Under the pieces are notes generated by a model. The model saw only the letters and a program-made list of their open reading frames with translations, was not told the DNA's origin and did no database searches. Below are positions 16,423-24,998 of a DNA stretch of 64,000 nucleotides, one piece after another (position 1 is the stretch's first letter; each line of letters starts with the position of its first letter). The stretch lies in NCBI GenBank assembly GCA_030431715.1, contig JAUIIO010000022.1, positions 1 through 64,000 of the forward strand, in the 5' to 3' direction. The position numbers and the translations under genes are program-made. The DNA is from a bacterium (GTDB lineage Bacteria > Bdellovibrionota_C > UBA2361 > RFPC01).

Positions 16423-16517
16423 CACGCTAATACCCGCCAGATTGAGCTGAGCTCACCGGCGTGACGTATATAGCATGCGCAAAGAGAGAAAATTTCGCTA
16501 GAGGAAGCTCGACTTAT

Positions 16518-17447
16518 ATGCCAATACCAGTTCCAAGAAAACAACAAGTCATGAAGGAGCGACTCGTAAAGCCGTCATGGCTAAAGGTTAAGGCTCCAGG
16601 CTCTCCTGAATATTTAGAAACCAAGAAGATTGTAAACGATCACCGGCTCCACACTGTATGTGAAGAGGCTCATTGCCCCAATATCGGAGAGTGCTGGTCA
16701 CACCACACGGCAACCTTTATGATCATGGGCGAGCTCTGTACGAGAAGATGCCATTTTTGTTCCGTAAAGGACGGGACAGAAGACAACCTCGAGCCTCTCG
16801 ATCCCCTTGAACCTCATCGAGTAGGAGTCGCGGTAAAAAAGCTTGGGCTACGACATGTAGTTATAACATCAGTGGACAGGGATGATGTGAGCGACTTTGG
16901 AGCGAATCATTTCGCAAAAACCGTAGAGTCTATCCATCGACACGCCCCTGATTGTAAAGTAGAGCTCCTTATTCCTGATATGCAGGGTTCGCAGAAAGAC
17001 CTGAAAACGATCATGGATGCGCAAGTAGACGTCCTAAACCACAATGTGGAGACGGTCCCTCGTCTCTATAAGAAGGTACGCCCTTTTTCCGGTTACATTC
17101 GTTCTCTGAGCATACTCAAGGGAGCTAAAGATTTTGATCCTGCTACGAAGACTAAATCCGGGATAATGGTTGGTCTCGGAGAGACTTTCGATGAGGTACT
17201 CCACCTGATGGACGATCTGCGGGCGAATGACGTAGATATCATGACCATTGGACAGTACTTGCGGCCTACCGCCAAACAACTCCCTGTGAGAGAATTCATC
17301 ACACCTGAAGAGTTTTTAAAGTATAAGGAAGAAGGACTTGCCAGAGGCTTTCGGTTCGTTGAGTCGGGAGCATTGGTACGAAGCTCTTACCACGCCTGGC
17401 AACATACATCTCCGGAGCCGACCTCTCGTGATGTCGAAGTTGCCTGA
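16518..17447 (+). CDS. lipA: Lipoyl synthase
   Basis: Radical-SAM enzyme that inserts two sulphurs into protein-bound octanoyl groups. The start at 16518 (MPIPVPRKQQ) is chosen because AGAGGA lies upstream; the frame is open to a GTG at 16461, and another ATG is at 16551. Both iron-sulphur sites are present: the auxiliary cluster in CEEAHCPNIGEC and the radical-SAM CTRRCHFC. Further conserved blocks are TATFMIMGELC, VVITSVDRDDVSDFGA, DVLNHNVETVPRLY, KSGIMVGLGETFDEV and SGALVRSSYHA. It lies between pdhC (its probable substrate protein) and the TamB-Omp85 gene, whose start is only 11 bases after the lipA stop. Confidence 0.96.
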   Translation: MPIPVPRKQQVMKERLVKPSWLKVKAPGSPEYLETKKIVNDHRLHTVCEEAHCPNIGECWSHHTATFMIMGELCTRRCHFCSVKDGTEDNLEPLDPLEPHRVGVAVKKLGLRHVVITSVDRDDVSDFGANHFAKTVESIHRHAPDCKVELLIPDMQGSQKDLKTIMDAQVDVLNHNVETVPRLYKKVRPFSGYIRSLSILKGAKDFDPATKTKSGIMVGLGETFDEVLHLMDDLRANDVDIMTIGQYLRPTAKQLPVREFITPEEFLKYKEEGLARGFRFVESGALVRSSYHAWQHTSPEPTSRDVEVA

Positions 17448-17458
17448 CCTTTACCTCA

Positions 17459-20400
17459 ATGAAGAAACATGGCCTGCGCACCGCATTAATCTTTCTCATC
17501 CTTGGGCTATCGCTCGGATTCGGACTCAAAGTATTTGAAAATTACCTCGAGCAAGAACTTACCGAAGTTCTGAGAGACGAAGTACTCAAGGCCTGCCCAG
17601 ATTGCTCCTTTGAAGTAGAGGAACTTCACCTTTCACTTGTAAGTCTGAGCGGACGTGCCTATCGGGCTAGAGTGATCAAAGGCGGAAAGGACCAACTCAT
17701 GGTAGAGGAAATGAGGGCCACCTTTGGCCTGAGCCAAATCCTTAAGAGAACCATTGATCTCAAGACTCTAGAATTTCATAACGCTTTCTCTGAGCAGGTG
17801 GATCCACGAAGCACGACGTTTCAAGTGATTGATGGATTCGCCTCCTCGGATCCAAATAAAAAAGAAGAGCCAAAACTCAAAGTAAACCTTCTCAATCTCA
17901 CCGTACATAACGGAAAGTTTAAGCAGAAGCTCGGAAGCGGCACTCTGCTTGGACGAAACGTATCGCTTGATATAACCAGAAAGGATCCGAGCACACTCAT
18001 CATAAAACCGCATGTTGAGCGGATCATCTACAAAGGACGAGGCACCCGAGAATCTTACGATGTAGGTCCCGCGGATGCTGAACTGTCTGTGACTGAACAA
18101 TCTCTGCGGGTTCTAAAACTCCACATTGGCGAAGGAAGATCCTTTGCAAATAGCACAGACTTCGTTTACTTCGACAAAGACGACACGATTCAAGGTAATG
18201 TTCGCTTGCGACTTGAGAAAGGTTTGAGAGTATTTGCTCCGCTCATCAATGAACCAATTACTGGGGAGATAGCACTATCAGGTACGATTCAGAACCCGAC
18301 TGCTAAAATGCAGGTTCGCTCTAAGGAATCAGATCAGGTTACTACAGCATCTCCCATTACTCTCCTCGACAATAATCTAACCGGCAAAATACAGGTACAT
18401 GCGAAGCACGTTACACTTGAAGGGCTACACGCTCTTGAGAGCAACGCAACGGTTTCCATCGGGGGCACATCAGGTTCTCCTACATTCAGCATACACGGAT
18501 CCACCCAAAACGCTCTTTACGAAGATCTCTCCTTTGGCGCCCCCCTTACATACGACCTGAGCATTGGTGAGAAGATAGATTTCACTATTCTCCAATCGGA
18601 ATACGGGATTGAGCGCCTCTCCGCGCAAGGCACGCTCAAAGACAATGGCAAAAATCTCTCCATTGTAAAAACGAATTTCTCCCTCCATAACTTCATCCTC
18701 AGCACAGATGCTACACGCAAAGGAAAAGGTCGGGAATGGGCTAGAGTCTCGGGGAGTGGCACATTTTCTGGTGAGCTTCTTTTTCAAAACATAAAGGGAG
18801 ATGCCACTCTTAGCGTAAGTTCTCCCGACTTCGCTGGCGATGCTGCGGTAACAGGAAGTACAACGCTAAGACAGGGCATTATAACCAGCTCTTTGAGTAA
18901 CACCTCGCAAAGTCTTCTGAGCGATCTCTACCTCGACCTGAGTAGCAAAACAAAGAGCAAATTTAAAGTCGTCCTTAACGATTTCCAACCTGCCGATTAC
19001 GACGATAGGCTGAAATGCTTTACTGCTACCGCCTCTGGCGAATACACTTTTCATATAGATCAATTCACCTCTGGTAATGGAAAGATAGAGCTTGAAAAGC
19101 TTATTGGCGGATGCCCTCCTGAGCAAACTCGCCTCCTTAAAAAGACACAACTCCCAATACGTTCTGGAATACTCACCCTCCCTTCCGTCAAACTTCAGGG
19201 AACGAATACAGAGGTCACAGCACAGGGAAGCGTTTCCTTTGCTGACGGCTATGATTTATCGGTAAATGGCTCCGTATATTTGGCCTCACTCCTGCCACTG
19301 GTGCCAGGCGTTGATGACCTGAGCGGCAAAATTAATACAAGAGTGCTGCTCCAGGGAGATCTGGCATCTCCTCAGCTCGAGGGAACAGCAACACTTGAAA
19401 ATGGACGCGCCTCTATTGAATCAGCAGGCATAAATGCCGAAAAAATAGCCGCTCGAGTCGATCTTAAGAACGGCCAAATCGTTGTTCAGGAAAGCAGTGG
19501 AGAAATCAACGGCGGAACTTTCCAACTCACCGGGAACATCAATCCGACGCAAGAAAAACTCTCAACTCTAAGCATGGTGTTTCAAGATGTCGTTTACGAT
19601 CCACTTCGAGATGCTGTGCTTACGCTTTCAGGCGATCTCAACTTTGAGTTCAGAAGCCAGCAAGAGCCACGAATTTACGGAGAGGTAGAGGTAGACGGGG
19701 CGCAGATCGAAAAGAACTTCGATCTCTTAACCTTCATTGAGGATATCCCCTCTCTCATTCTCGGCTCCAGCCAAAAAAACAATCCTGACACCCAGCGTAC
19801 AGATAGAAAATCTAGGCCAATACTTCTCGATATCTCTGTATTTGCTAGTAGAAACGTTTTTATTCTAACCAATCTTCTGAGCGCTGAACTTAAGGGGGAC
19901 TTTCGAATTACAGGTAGTGTGCGACGACCTATCATTAATGGCACTCTCTCAACGCTGGGCGGTTGGTTTGGTCTTAAAGAAAGGAGATTTGATATCACCT
20001 CAGGGCAAATTTCATTTTCTCCCGTCATCCCACAGCCCAATCTTGAGCTCCTCGGAGAAACATATGTGAGATCGAGAGCAGGTGATAACGTCCTCATTCT
20101 CCTTGAGGCTACAGGTCCAATAACCACACCTACTATCACTCTGAGTTCTGACAGAGGCCTGAGCCAGAGAGAACTCTTAACCCTCCTTAGCTCAGGAGCA
20201 GATCTCACGACAGGAAGCGTACATTCGAGAGCAGAAGATCTTGAGCTGGAAGAACGACTCAGGGAAGGAGGAAGCTTCCTAGAAAGGTCTATGCGATTCC
20301 TACGTACGATTACTCGTATAGATCTACTTACCCTAGAACCTCAATTCAACACAAGACGGGGTCAACTTGAGCCTACTCTCATCGCTGAGAAGAAAATCAT

Positions 20401-23008
20401 GGAGTACCTAAGCCTCATTGGTCAAAGTTTCATTAGTAGTGGCGGTGACCAGTCCGTAGTAACACTCCAATACGATCTCACTGAAAAGCTACAACTCGCC
20501 GGGAGTGTTAGCACGATTACTTCTGAAAACACCAACGCCGTAGGAATCGATCTGAAATATACCGTAATTGCACGTGAAGATCCTTATATAGAGTACACCA
20601 TACTCGGGAATAATTTTGTGAGTAGAAGAGAGCTGCTAAAAAATCTCAAACTTACCTCGGCCACCCAGCTTCGCGAGTCAGAAGTAGATAAAGTACAGAA
20701 ATCGATACGAGCCTTTTACAAGCGAAATGGCTTTTTTCAGGCTGAAAACAAAACTACCTGCCTTGAGGTAGATAACAATTGTCGACACCTTCAGATTACC
20801 ATTAATGAAGGGCCACGCTCCAAGATAAAGAAAATCAATTTTAGCGGTGACCCTTTACCGAAGGAATTTGAAAAGAAACTTATTGAACTTTTTGATGAGC
20901 GCTATGCTACCACGCTCTCACTACAAGATGGAAATTCCGAGCTCACCCGGTGGCTGCGTTCAGAAGGATACATCGGCGCACGAGTGCAAATGAACTACGT
21001 AGAGCGTAGTGATGAGGATAAAGACCTATCAGTAGAAGTCACTGCGGGACAGCCGGTATCCTTTGAGTTTGTTGGAAATACACTATTTAGCGCAGAGGAA
21101 TTTCTTAAAACGATAAACCTCTTTCAAAGAAAACAGCCTTTTGGGAACAACACGATCCGCATTCTTGTCGAGAATATGGAGCGAATGTACAGGGAAGCCG
21201 GGTATCTTTTTGTTACTATTGACTATTCCTCGCTTGAAGACTTTATCAATGAGCGTATCTACTACCGAATCAATATCGACGAGCAACATCAAGTTAAAAT
21301 ACGAGATGTCGTATTCCACTCAGAACGATATACAGAGGAAGAACTCAGAAACCTTCTCGCAGAAAGCGCTTACTCAAGCTACATAGAACAAGTCTTTACG
21401 CCAAGCGCCATAGTAGAGGAAGTACTCGACCGGAATGCTAGACTCCTCAGAAACCTTCTAAGACACGAGGGATACAATAACGCCACGGTTCAGGCGTCTT
21501 TTACACTACAACAAGGGGATAAAGAAGCAATCATTGAGTACACTATATTAGAGCAAAACCTTCAGGCAGCACGACATATAATTGTACATAACTTTCCCCC
21601 CGATCTTCCCCTTCCTGAAATTCCGAGTGCTCCCCTCTCAGCGCCTAAGATCAATAGCTACATAAATAAGCTCATGAACCTACTTACTGAGAACGGATAT
21701 ACTGGTCAATCTCTCTGGACAGAAATCGAAGGTGATTTCGATACGTTTCATATTAATCTCGACACACCACAACAGGTGATGGTCCAAGATATATTTATCG
21801 TAGGTAATAACTCTATCCCTGAGGAGGTTATTCGCTCTCACCTCGCCCTACAAGAAGGCGATCCCTTACGGACACAGTCAATACAAAGCTCTACTCGTGC
21901 CCTTTTAAAGCTTGGACTCTTCTCCAGAGTTGAAGTTGAAAAACTTAGCTCAAGCCAAAACCAAAACTCTCTCCTCGTTCGCGTGGTAGAGCGCCCTCTA
22001 ACAACTCTTGAGGTTGGTACAGGGATTAATTCAGAATTTGGCTATCATATCTTTGGTGAAACTATCGATAAGTCACTCTTTAAGGATGGACGTAGACTTT
22101 CCTTACGTATGGACGCTTACTACGAAGAAACGGAGGCTCAGATCTCAAGAGGAATAGCCAGTCTTGGATACTTCGATCCCGAATTTACCTCACAGTATTC
22201 TTTTGCACAGGATTTACGATATCAAAAGCTAGAGCTCACTACATTTGAATACGATCTCGACAGGTACTCACTTTCAACATCTCTGAATCAATCCTCTGAT
22301 GAAGCCTTCTCCCACAACTTTATCCATACGATCCTGAGAGATGATTTGAGCAATGTGAGCCCTGGGGCGGTAATCGGTTCCTATGACACCGGCATTGTAG
22401 ACCTGAGCTTCCTCACCTTCGCGCTTTCTTACGACAAGCGAGATCAGGTACTCAATCCAAGAAGAGGTTACTTCGCAAGACTCGAGTCTCTCATAGCTTC
22501 AGATCTCATAGGCTCAGAAGCAAATTATACTTCTCTTCAAGGGCAGTTTTCATACGTCGTACCATTTACCATTGAATCAAGAGCATTTGCTTTCGCACAT
22601 AATCTACGCTCGGGCATAAGCTGGGCGCTCGATGACACAGACCAAATACCAATAACGCAGCGTTACTATCTTGGTGGTCGTACTACTATCCGCGGCTTCC
22701 GAGAAAACTCGCTCGGGCCACGAGGAGACGATGGGGCAGTTATCGGTGGTGACATACTGATGCAAAACAATACTGAATTTCGGTACTACCCAAGCGACGT
22801 ACTCTCCGTACACCTCTTTTTCGATGCCGGGAATGTCTTCTTACAAGATCAGTCCGTAGAGCTTGATGAACTTCGTACCAGCGCCGGACTTGGGCTACGC
22901 TACCTCTCGCCAATCGGACCTATCGGCTTTGATCTCGGAAAGCCACTTGAGGAACGACAAGGCGAACCATCAATCCGCTTCCACTTTCAAGTCGGAACTA
23001 CCTTTTAG
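17459..23008 (+). CDS. TamB-Omp85 (TamA/BamA-type) fusion protein
   Basis: One uninterrupted 1849-residue protein joins the two halves of a translocation and assembly module. It starts with an N-terminal membrane anchor (RTALIFLILGLSLGFGLKVF), followed by about 1000 residues of beta-rich AsmA/TamB-like sequence ending in the TamB family C-terminal domain (about 780-1000; STLGGWFGLKERRFDITSGQ, LSQRELLTLLSSGADL). About six POTRA-like repeats follow (about 1040-1500; IEYTILGNNFVSRREL, FEFVGNTLFSAEEFL, VQDIFIVGNNSIPEEVI). It ends as an Omp85 barrel with the lid-loop motif TTIRGFREN (about 1740) and terminal SPIGPIGFDLGKPL and FQVGTTF. TamB normally bridges the membranes and TamA is a separate barrel. 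Here the inner-membrane anchor, periplasmic conduit and barrel are one chain. It probably moves lipids or proteins to the outer membrane. It follows lipA by 11 bases, and its ribosome-binding site is weak. Confidence 0.93.
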   Translation: MKKHGLRTALIFLILGLSLGFGLKVFENYLEQELTEVLRDEVLKACPDCSFEVEELHLSLVSLSGRAYRARVIKGGKDQLMVEEMRATFGLSQILKRTIDLKTLEFHNAFSEQVDPRSTTFQVIDGFASSDPNKKEEPKLKVNLLNLTVHNGKFKQKLGSGTLLGRNVSLDITRKDPSTLIIKPHVERIIYKGRGTRESYDVGPADAELSVTEQSLRVLKLHIGEGRSFANSTDFVYFDKDDTIQGNVRLRLEKGLRVFAPLINEPITGEIALSGTIQNPTAKMQVRSKESDQVTTASPITLLDNNLTGKIQVHAKHVTLEGLHALESNATVSIGGTSGSPTFSIHGSTQNALYEDLSFGAPLTYDLSIGEKIDFTILQSEYGIERLSAQGTLKDNGKNLSIVKTNFSLHNFILSTDATRKGKGREWARVSGSGTFSGELLFQNIKGDATLSVSSPDFAGDAAVTGSTTLRQGIITSSLSNTSQSLLSDLYLDLSSKTKSKFKVVLNDFQPADYDDRLKCFTATASGEYTFHIDQFTSGNGKIELEKLIGGCPPEQTRLLKKTQLPIRSGILTLPSVKLQGTNTEVTAQGSVSFADGYDLSVNGSVYLASLLPLVPGVDDLSGKINTRVLLQGDLASPQLEGTATLENGRASIESAGINAEKIAARVDLKNGQIVVQESSGEINGGTFQLTGNINPTQEKLSTLSMVFQDVVYDPLRDAVLTLSGDLNFEFRSQQEPRIYGEVEVDGAQIEKNFDLLTFIEDIPSLILGSSQKNNPDTQRTDRKSRPILLDISVFASRNVFILTNLLSAELKGDFRITGSVRRPIINGTLSTLGGWFGLKERRFDITSGQISFSPVIPQPNLELLGETYVRSRAGDNVLILLEATGPITTPTITLSSDRGLSQRELLTLLSSGADLTTGSVHSRAEDLELEERLREGGSFLERSMRFLRTITRIDLLTLEPQFNTRRGQLEPTLIAEKKIMEYLSLIGQSFISSGGDQSVVTLQYDLTEKLQLAGSVSTITSENTNAVGIDLKYTVIAREDPYIEYTILGNNFVSRRELLKNLKLTSATQLRESEVDKVQKSIRAFYKRNGFFQAENKTTCLEVDNNCRHLQITINEGPRSKIKKINFSGDPLPKEFEKKLIELFDERYATTLSLQDGNSELTRWLRSEGYIGARVQMNYVERSDEDKDLSVEVTAGQPVSFEFVGNTLFSAEEFLKTINLFQRKQPFGNNTIRILVENMERMYREAGYLFVTIDYSSLEDFINERIYYRINIDEQHQVKIRDVVFHSERYTEEELRNLLAESAYSSYIEQVFTPSAIVEEVLDRNARLLRNLLRHEGYNNATVQASFTLQQGDKEAIIEYTILEQNLQAARHIIVHNFPPDLPLPEIPSAPLSAPKINSYINKLMNLLTENGYTGQSLWTEIEGDFDTFHINLDTPQQVMVQDIFIVGNNSIPEEVIRSHLALQEGDPLRTQSIQSSTRALLKLGLFSRVEVEKLSSSQNQNSLLVRVVERPLTTLEVGTGINSEFGYHIFGETIDKSLFKDGRRLSLRMDAYYEETEAQISRGIASLGYFDPEFTSQYSFAQDLRYQKLELTTFEYDLDRYSLSTSLNQSSDEAFSHNFIHTILRDDLSNVSPGAVIGSYDTGIVDLSFLTFALSYDKRDQVLNPRRGYFARLESLIASDLIGSEANYTSLQGQFSYVVPFTIESRAFAFAHNLRSGISWALDDTDQIPITQRYYLGGRTTIRGFRENSLGPRGDDGAVIGGDILMQNNTEFRYYPSDVLSVHLFFDAGNVFLQDQSVELDELRTSAGLGLRYLSPIGPIGFDLGKPLEERQGEPSIRFHFQVGTTF

Positions 23009-23306: not shown

Positions 23307-24998
23307 CTACCCTTCAGACTCCTCTGCCTGCTGCAACTCAAGAAGTTTGGCGTACTTCAAAAAGGTGGAGAATGCCTCAGCAAAGGCAACTTGCATCCCC
23401 GCAATCCCTTCAATAAATCCAAGACGGAAAAAATAGAACTTTATAAATCGCATAGGAGGATGAAATACGAGCTTCTTCATGTTTGCACGGACCCCTCGCT
23501 CATAGAGAGCATTGGCAGAGAGTGTTGAGAATCGATTTAAGGTCTGAATAAGATCGCGGTACGAGTCATAGGTGTAATGGTATAGATATCCTTTGAGTTT
23601 CCTCGTAGCCCCATCTACAAAAGCCTTCTCATGGGGGTTCACACCGCCCCAAGTAGCACTCTCTCTCCAGAGGAAGCGAAGACGATATTCTGGATGCCAG
23701 CCACCCCTGTCCCACCAACGATCAAGAAAGTAGACAAGGCGACAGAGATAGTATCCCTTCACAACGGGTGTGGAGGCGTAGCTGTCCCTGAGTATCTTCA
23801 TGATTTCAGCCTTTAACTCCGAGGAGAGCTCCTCATCAGCATCAAGATTGAGTACCCATGGATATTTACACTGAGAGAGTGCAAATTGCTTTTGCTCGCG
23901 ATGTCCGGGCCATTCTCTTTCAATAACACGTACACGAGAAAAAGAACGGCATATTTCAAGTGTTCGGTCAGTAGAACCACTATCCACGACAAGAATTTCG
24001 TCACACCAAGAGATCGAATCAATACAACGAGCAATCTTCTCTTCTTCATTTTTACAGATAATAAATGCTGACACACGCTCCCTATCTCCGGGCTTCTGAG
24101 CTTCACACTGATCGAGTGCGAGCTCCACATCTCTGGCAGAAACCTGACTTGCCGGATAAAGGGTTCGAAGAGAAGACTGAAAAGGCGCCCAGCGGTCAGG
24201 GTGCATTGAGCGCTGTACTGGATAGAGCGCTACGCCAGAAACCCGCGCGACTGAGGCTAGATGCGTGATCCCCGTAGAAGGCCCAACGTAAAACCTCGCG
24301 TTCTTAAGAATTCCGAGCACAACACTAAGACTCGTAACAAGACGGGTCCTAACAGTAGGATAATCTTCGGAAAGCTTATCGTACATTTCGCGCATTTTTT
24401 CTTCAGCCGGACCGAGCAAAATCAAGACCCGCTGCCCCCTCTCACTGAGAGAACGTGCGAGCTCCTGCCAACGCTCATGTGGCCATGCTTCAGCCGAAAC
24501 ACTTGCTCCCGGCATTAAGATTGTTGCGCCTTGAACATCCTCAACCTCAGGAATATCCTTGAAATCATCGATCGTAAGGGCTGAGCGCAAACGGGTATGT
24601 CTCAGCCTATCATCAAGAAGTGAGAGCAGCTGCCAGTTATACTCGGCCTCATTGAGAAAAGCTCTCGAACGCCTGACAGTTCGAAATCTATTGTAATAAA
24701 AGCTATGCCACCGTGCGAGATTGCCTATCCTCAAGGGAATGCCGGCCTTGGCATACATTCTTGCGACATGGCTCTTCGCCATAAGGTCAACTGAAGCATC
24801 AAACTTATAGGGCTTAAGATCCTCACCTATTGTCACCACACCATCAAGAAAGGCGATATTATCAACGAGCCCTCTCGTGTATTCAGCAACGTGAATATAA
24901 ACCTGACATTCAGGGATAAGGGCCTTTAGCTGCTTAACTCCGTGCAATGCCAGAACAACATCACCCACTTTGTCAGGTCTGGAAATGAGTACCTTCAT
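23307..24998 (-). CDS. GT9-GT2 fusion glycosyltransferase (LPS core type)
   Basis: A 563-residue protein made of two glycosyltransferases. Residues 1-300 resemble family GT9 heptosyltransferases (MKVLISRPDKVGDVVLALHGV, ILMPGASVSAEAWPHERW, FYVGPSTGITHLASV). Residues 306-545 resemble family GT2 WaaE/KdtX-type enzymes: SAFIICKNEEEKIARCIDS, EILVVDSGSTDRT, a DxD-type LNLDADEEL, and HPEYRLRFL. Both probably act at the cytoplasmic face on lipopolysaccharide core, adding a heptose-like sugar and a second hexose. In other bacteria these are usually separate genes of a core locus. The gene stands apart from any LPS cluster visible here and is convergent with the TamB-Omp85 gene. Confidence 0.88.
   Translation of the reverse strand: MKVLISRPDKVGDVVLALHGVKQLKALIPECQVYIHVAEYTRGLVDNIAFLDGVVTIGEDLKPYKFDASVDLMAKSHVARMYAKAGIPLRIGNLARWHSFYYNRFRTVRRSRAFLNEAEYNWQLLSLLDDRLRHTRLRSALTIDDFKDIPEVEDVQGATILMPGASVSAEAWPHERWQELARSLSERGQRVLILLGPAEEKMREMYDKLSEDYPTVRTRLVTSLSVVLGILKNARFYVGPSTGITHLASVARVSGVALYPVQRSMHPDRWAPFQSSLRTLYPASQVSARDVELALDQCEAQKPGDRERVSAFIICKNEEEKIARCIDSISWCDEILVVDSGSTDRTLEICRSFSRVRVIEREWPGHREQKQFALSQCKYPWVLNLDADEELSSELKAEIMKILRDSYASTPVVKGYYLCRLVYFLDRWWDRGGWHPEYRLRFLWRESATWGGVNPHEKAFVDGATRKLKGYLYHYTYDSYRDLIQTLNRFSTLSANALYERGVRANMKKLVFHPPMRFIKFYFFRLGFIEGIAGMQVAFAEAFSTFLKYAKLLELQQAEESEG

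Follow-up and report, generated by a model that had tools for sequence, protein, structure and literature searches.

In Escherichia coli, TamB is held in the inner membrane by a signal anchor (PMC11014939), binds phospholipid and shares with TamA a groove that carries phospholipid (PMC12800296). TamB docks on POTRAs 1-3 of TamA, and its last strand pairs with strand 1 of the TamA barrel in a hybrid barrel that alternates with a free state (PMC12800296); binding of TamB needs TamA POTRA1 (PMC4525385). A 2026 TamAB structure shows a gap of about 23 angstrom from groove to membrane. The C-terminal domain of E. coli TamB, composed of two helices and six strands, has been described as a pseudosubstrate domain (PMC12800296), and TAM purified from E. 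coli is reported to assemble outer-membrane proteins in vitro (PMC11341756). In Borrelia, DUF490 binds POTRA2 and POTRA3 (PMC11361582), and a prediction has the end of TamB completing the barrel of BamA through strand augmentation (PMC13382580).

TamB and Omp85 are elsewhere two separate proteins. No published description of a TamB-Omp85 fusion as one chain was found in a literature search that left preprints and most subscription journals outside its scope; the words "fusion" and "fused" are absent from the text of the Heinz 2015 survey (PMC4494059), and PMC4104836 describes TamB as part of none of its ten Omp85 architectures. Here we analyze such a gene from an order of uncultured bacteria with two membranes; it lies in a 64,000-nucleotide stretch of DNA (hereafter, the window).

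Architecture of the single frame

The fusion gene occupies positions 17459..23008 (+), 11 bases downstream of a lipoyl synthase gene (LipA; 16461..17447, +). Its 1849-residue open reading frame contains no internal stops, as expected from the original prediction, which had been made from the sequence alone. From N- to C-terminus, the product comprises a membrane anchor, a TamB beta-taco, the TamB terminal domain, a linker of about seven residues, six POTRA domains, and a 16-strand Omp85 barrel; all features described below lie on the same (+) strand. Pfam matches exceed their cut-offs for all three families: TamB (DUF490; PF04357) at residues 684-1035 (19508..20563; E 1.1e-36, 127.3 bits against a cut-off of 22.4), POTRA (PF07244) in five stretches (2e-35), and Omp85 (PF01103) at residues 1566-1849 (4.1e-50). 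The protein was also modeled with AlphaFold as two overlapping parts, using alignments of its own relatives. The models reach a pLDDT of about 79, with modest pTM values (0.65 and 0.48), and do not place the domains relative to each other. Downstream of the fusion gene, a separate 563-aa frame (window positions 23307-24998, -) carries heptosyltransferase-type GT9 and family 2 glycosyltransferase together.

The predicted inner-membrane anchor is recovered at residues 8-26 (17480..17536), on the evidence of hydropathy, conservation, and a modeled helix at residues 2-45. Residues 5-28 form the only strongly hydrophobic stretch of the protein, marking its hydropathy maximum, and a hydropathy scan of the junction region finds no hydrophobic stretch there. 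Such an anchor is kept in all fused relatives whose N-terminus is intact. The moderate hydropathy value of the helix (2.08) would be compatible with a cleaved signal peptide, in which case the mature form would reside in the outer membrane alone and extend a long arm into the periplasm; but the helix has no Ala-X-Ala-like end, its hydrophobic stretch continues into the predicted helix to residue 45, the same uninterrupted helix occurs in the relatives examined, and the TamB of E. coli itself has an inner-membrane signal anchor (PMC11014939). We consider cleavage at this end quite improbable, and retain the reading of the helix as an anchor.

The remainder of the first half is TamB in both sequence and modeled fold. 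The N-part model (residues 1-1075; pLDDT 79.1) continues from the anchor helix into the beta-taco, which is essentially all beta strands (residues 49-897; 17603..20149; Foldseek matches to 9xdc_B, 9xdd_B, and 5vtg), and then into the C-terminal domain, with helices at 903-912 and 940-952 and six strands at 956-1034; as delimited here, the domain has its strands at 956-1037 (20165..20569). This half finds its best PDB matches in the E. coli TamB chains of the hybrid and the non-hybrid TamAB cryo-EM structures (E 9e-11 and 4e-9), and the beta-taco structure 5vtg is also matched. The predicted TamB-like region, with the family's C-terminal domain, is thus borne out by Pfam, model, and Foldseek together, and this half shows the full set of structural features that defines TamB: a signal anchor at the N-terminus, then a beta-taco, and at the end a pair of helices with six strands.

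The joint between the halves falls at residues 1038-1044 (20570..20590), where model and alignment place a linker from the last TamB strand to POTRA 1, and inside the range at which it had been anticipated (about 20450-20620). The C-part model then gives six POTRA domains across residues 1045-1511, where about six had been predicted: POTRA 1 (1045-1116; 20591..20806), which aligns with POTRA 2 of unfused, seven-POTRA partners; POTRA 2 (1122-1195; 20822..21043); POTRA 3 (1200-1274; 21056..21280); POTRA 4 (1280-1364; 21296..21550); POTRA 5 (1373-1435; 21575..21763); and POTRA 6 (1441-1511; 21779..21991), the last also delimited by Pfam. The complete barrel that had been predicted is likewise present, with 16 modeled strands at residues 1515-1849 (22001..23005; also supported by Pfam and Foldseek) and with both the IRGF loop and SPIGPIGFDLGKPL. 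This half therefore shows the combination that defines the Omp85 superfamily, namely POTRA domain(s) with a 16-strand barrel and RGF loop.

An internal translation start that yielded two proteins from the gene is very improbable. In-frame ATG or GTG codons do occur near the joint, at residues 945, 981, 1054, 1176, and 1178. However, in a scan of residues 930-1200, none of these has a Shine-Dalgarno sequence in the upstream bases scanned, and no signal peptide of the kind carried by the separate partners in sister orders follows any of them, so that a product begun there could not be exported. We therefore reject this explanation.

Identity of the Omp85 half

The barrel had been predicted to be that of TamA (Omp85). 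The superfamily assignment holds, whereas the assignment to TamA proper does not: the protein falls well short of the TamA equivalog cut-off (NF047950; 137.5 against 625 bits), has six POTRA domains where TamA is defined by three, and groups in trees with the Omp85s of tamB operons from other phyla. The cut-off for E. coli-type TamB is also missed (NF047952; 56.6 against 825 bits). By contrast, the BamA equivalog cut-off is passed (TIGR03303; 322 against 297 bits), the same model is matched in 29/29 aligned rows, and the best PDB matches of the second half are BamA structures. Automatic annotation may well label these proteins BamA, masking the fusion, since the Omp85 half passes that model in the window protein and matches it in the aligned rows. 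The canonical BamAs of the class nevertheless form a clade of their own (support 100) apart from the fused half, and the window's genome keeps a separate canonical BamA of 781 aa, as well as two weaker Omp85s, LptD, and AsmA-like proteins. On these sequence comparisons, the second half is best called a TamB-partner (TamB-operon) Omp85 paralogue, neither TamA nor the genome's BamA. The same genome (G000, contig 24) also encodes a patatin-POTRA-Omp85 protein resembling PlpD (L096:649-2907, -).

It is possible, if rather doubtful, that the main role of this second half is that of an insertase of BamA type whose chaperone arm is built in, lipid transport being a minor role. The TIGR03303 score would fit such a function, as would the reported in vitro assembly of outer-membrane proteins by purified E. 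coli TAM (PMC11341756); against it stand the canonical BamA already present in the genome and the phospholipid bound by the groove of E. coli TamB (PMC12800296). We continue to regard the second half as a TamB-partner Omp85.

Distribution and origin of the fusion

A profile of the fused protein was run over 383 genomes (332 genera). TamB and the POTRA domains share one frame in all 29 genomes of the window's order, which span 13 families. The frame extends into a complete or nearly complete barrel in 25 of the 29; in the other four, a contig end cuts the frame, and TamB and the first parts of the POTRA region are still joined. Three more genomes of the class, outside the order, carry a fusion: G038 and two members of a single family, G029 and G031. 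In 13 others of the class, tamB is directly followed by omp85 as a separate gene. A TamB search finds a single TamB locus in every genome of the class except G036 (family f20; 92% complete), which has no TamB match, and a second locus in none. By its BamA, G036 groups with G038, the carrier of the separately placed fusion. Outside the class, no continuous TamB-Omp85 frame was recovered among the surveyed genomes: where long TamB frames occur (about 1500-2576 aa), Omp85 lies in a different frame in 23/23 checked, and at the loci examined from Polyangia, Sandaracinaceae, and others outside the lineage (L073-L079), Omp85 has a gene of its own, separate from that of TamB wherever TamB occurs.

Nearly all named relatives are metagenome assemblies, with labels that disagree among Deltaproteobacteria, Bdellovibrionales, Oligoflexia, and Dadabacteria, and a fused frame could in principle reflect an assembly or binning artifact. 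But the same frame recurs in dozens of separate assemblies across the 13 families of the order, with consistent neighbors. Because a continuous frame is found in so many independently assembled genomes, a chance or chimeric contig is excluded, no frameshift or assembly join needs to be invoked at the junction, and we give the artifact explanation almost no weight. Within this diversity, the fusions of family f14 (L048:3963-8987 and L049:3924-9044) are shorter (1675 and 1707 aa), have a shorter POTRA region, and lie in a different neighborhood, without the lip genes seen elsewhere.

In the sister orders, tamB and then omp85 stand behind a lipoyl synthase gene (a LipB-LipA kind of neighbor), and the tamB stop and omp85 start often overlap by one base or stand a few bases apart. 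When unfused, TamB finishes with a short tail and Omp85 starts with a signal peptide; most unfused partners, together with the tamB-operon partners of other phyla, have one additional N-terminal domain. Profile comparison pairs this domain with POTRA 6 of the window protein at a probability of 97.7%, and these partners are accordingly counted as having seven POTRAs. The fused proteins lack the stop, the Omp85 signal peptide, the first POTRA, and the TamB tail, with G038 as an exception for the tail. The source of the fusion was a pair of neighboring genes, tamB and omp85, which gave up the stop codon between them and the signal peptide of Omp85, as well as the first POTRA that most unfused partners have. 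We do not treat this last loss as unique to fusion, since the unfused partners of G032 and G039 likewise lack the seventh POTRA. Upstream, the gene preceding tamB in sister orders has a LipB-type ligase domain (L046:571-2181, +; L047:9987-11801, -); in L046 this domain shares one protein with a radical-SAM lipoyl synthase, and the window has lipoyl synthase only (16461-17447).

In a tree of both parts joined, the fusions of the order cluster with those of G029 and G031 (support 99), and the G038 fusion falls within the unfused clade (support 100). The canonical BamA of G038 also clusters with unfused genomes, and the joint of the G038 fusion still has a stretch of about 26 residues similar to the tail of unfused TamBs. 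Given this placement and this different, tail-like joint, the G038 family likely represents a second, independent fusion. A single origin for all fusions is disfavored on the same grounds, although an AU test leaves a single clade of all fusions admissible (p 0.138).

Proposed function and comparison with known systems

The gene probably encodes a single-chain TAM, in which TamB and its partner Omp85 form one membrane-to-membrane chain. In the mechanism we propose, the N-terminal helix would remain in the inner membrane; the beta-taco would provide a hydrophobic groove across the periplasm along which the acyl chains of phospholipids, and perhaps hydrophobic strands as well, move outward; and the TamB terminal domain would connect, through about seven residues, to POTRA 1 of a six-POTRA barrel in the outer membrane. 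This covalent link probably substitutes for the docking that TamA POTRA1 gives in E. coli; with TamB joined to POTRA 1 by seven residues, its docking partner would therefore always be present. The chain would thus be a permanent conduit, and by analogy with E. coli TamAB its cargo may be lipid, outer-membrane proteins, or both.

The whole TamB terminal domain is retained, and its last strand is well conserved (mean majority-residue frequency 0.62, against 0.42 in the linker). The linker, modeled at low confidence in the N-half model (residues 1036-1044), has a constant length of 7-8 residues across the order. We calculate that it can span about 25 angstrom at most, allowing about 3.4 angstrom for each of seven to eight residues. 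A protease could reach such a segment, given its poor conservation and low model confidence, and the chain might then be severed close to the junction once its two ends had inserted, leaving a two-protein TAM for which fusion ensured only 1:1 supply and co-localization. This seems unlikely: the linker shows no conserved cleavage motif when the order's fusions are aligned, linker length is held constant, and the Omp85 partner has lost its signal-peptidase site instead of retaining it. An uncleaved chain inserted in both membranes is what the sequence features suggest. The predicted covalent bridge is supported, in that the coupling is encoded by the frame; both the bridge and its fixed 1:1 stoichiometry depend on the absence of proteolytic cleavage.

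A fuller reading, to which we give slightly better than even odds, is that the uncleaved polypeptide is integral to both membranes, with the TamB strand internal and within about 25 angstrom of POTRA 1; that TamB and Omp85 never separate; that a hybrid barrel would arise either in cis, the POTRA arm folding back, or in trans, with a neighboring molecule, or would be absent; and that the arrangement arose at least twice. Since the last TamB strand is tethered to POTRA 1, the fusion directly tests the hybrid-barrel model. A TamB end welded to POTRA 1 across a whole order sets a hard geometric limit on two-state models of TamAB, and bears on whether the cycle of TamB includes an obligatory exit from the barrel and on how lipid-bridge proteins pass cargo to the outer membrane. 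It also poses a puzzle of biogenesis, namely how an inner-membrane-anchored chain can have a far end that must fold into the outer membrane.

Each of the closest known systems shares part of this design. E. coli TamAB has the TamB anchor, the beta-taco, the two-helix and six-strand domain, an Omp85 barrel with POTRA domains, and a groove between the membranes, but it consists of two proteins joined by POTRA docking and the hybrid barrel; its TamA has three POTRAs and the last strand of its TamB is a free C-terminus (PMC12800296), whereas the fusion has six POTRAs and an internal strand. The Borrelia pair (BB0794-BB0795) resembles the fusion in that TamB partners a BamA-type Omp85, and differs in that the proteins are separate and the partner is the organism's own BamA, with five POTRAs. 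The multi-POTRA BamA duplicates found in operons with TamB (Heinz 2015, PMC4494059) belong to the same evolutionary group, with a duplicated Omp85 beside tamB. The tamAB-like operon bd2494-bd2495 of Bdellovibrio, a DUF490 protein followed by a multi-POTRA Omp85, has the layout of the unfused sister orders; it differs from the fusion in having two genes, and an Omp85 with seven POTRAs (PMC3983030) in place of six.
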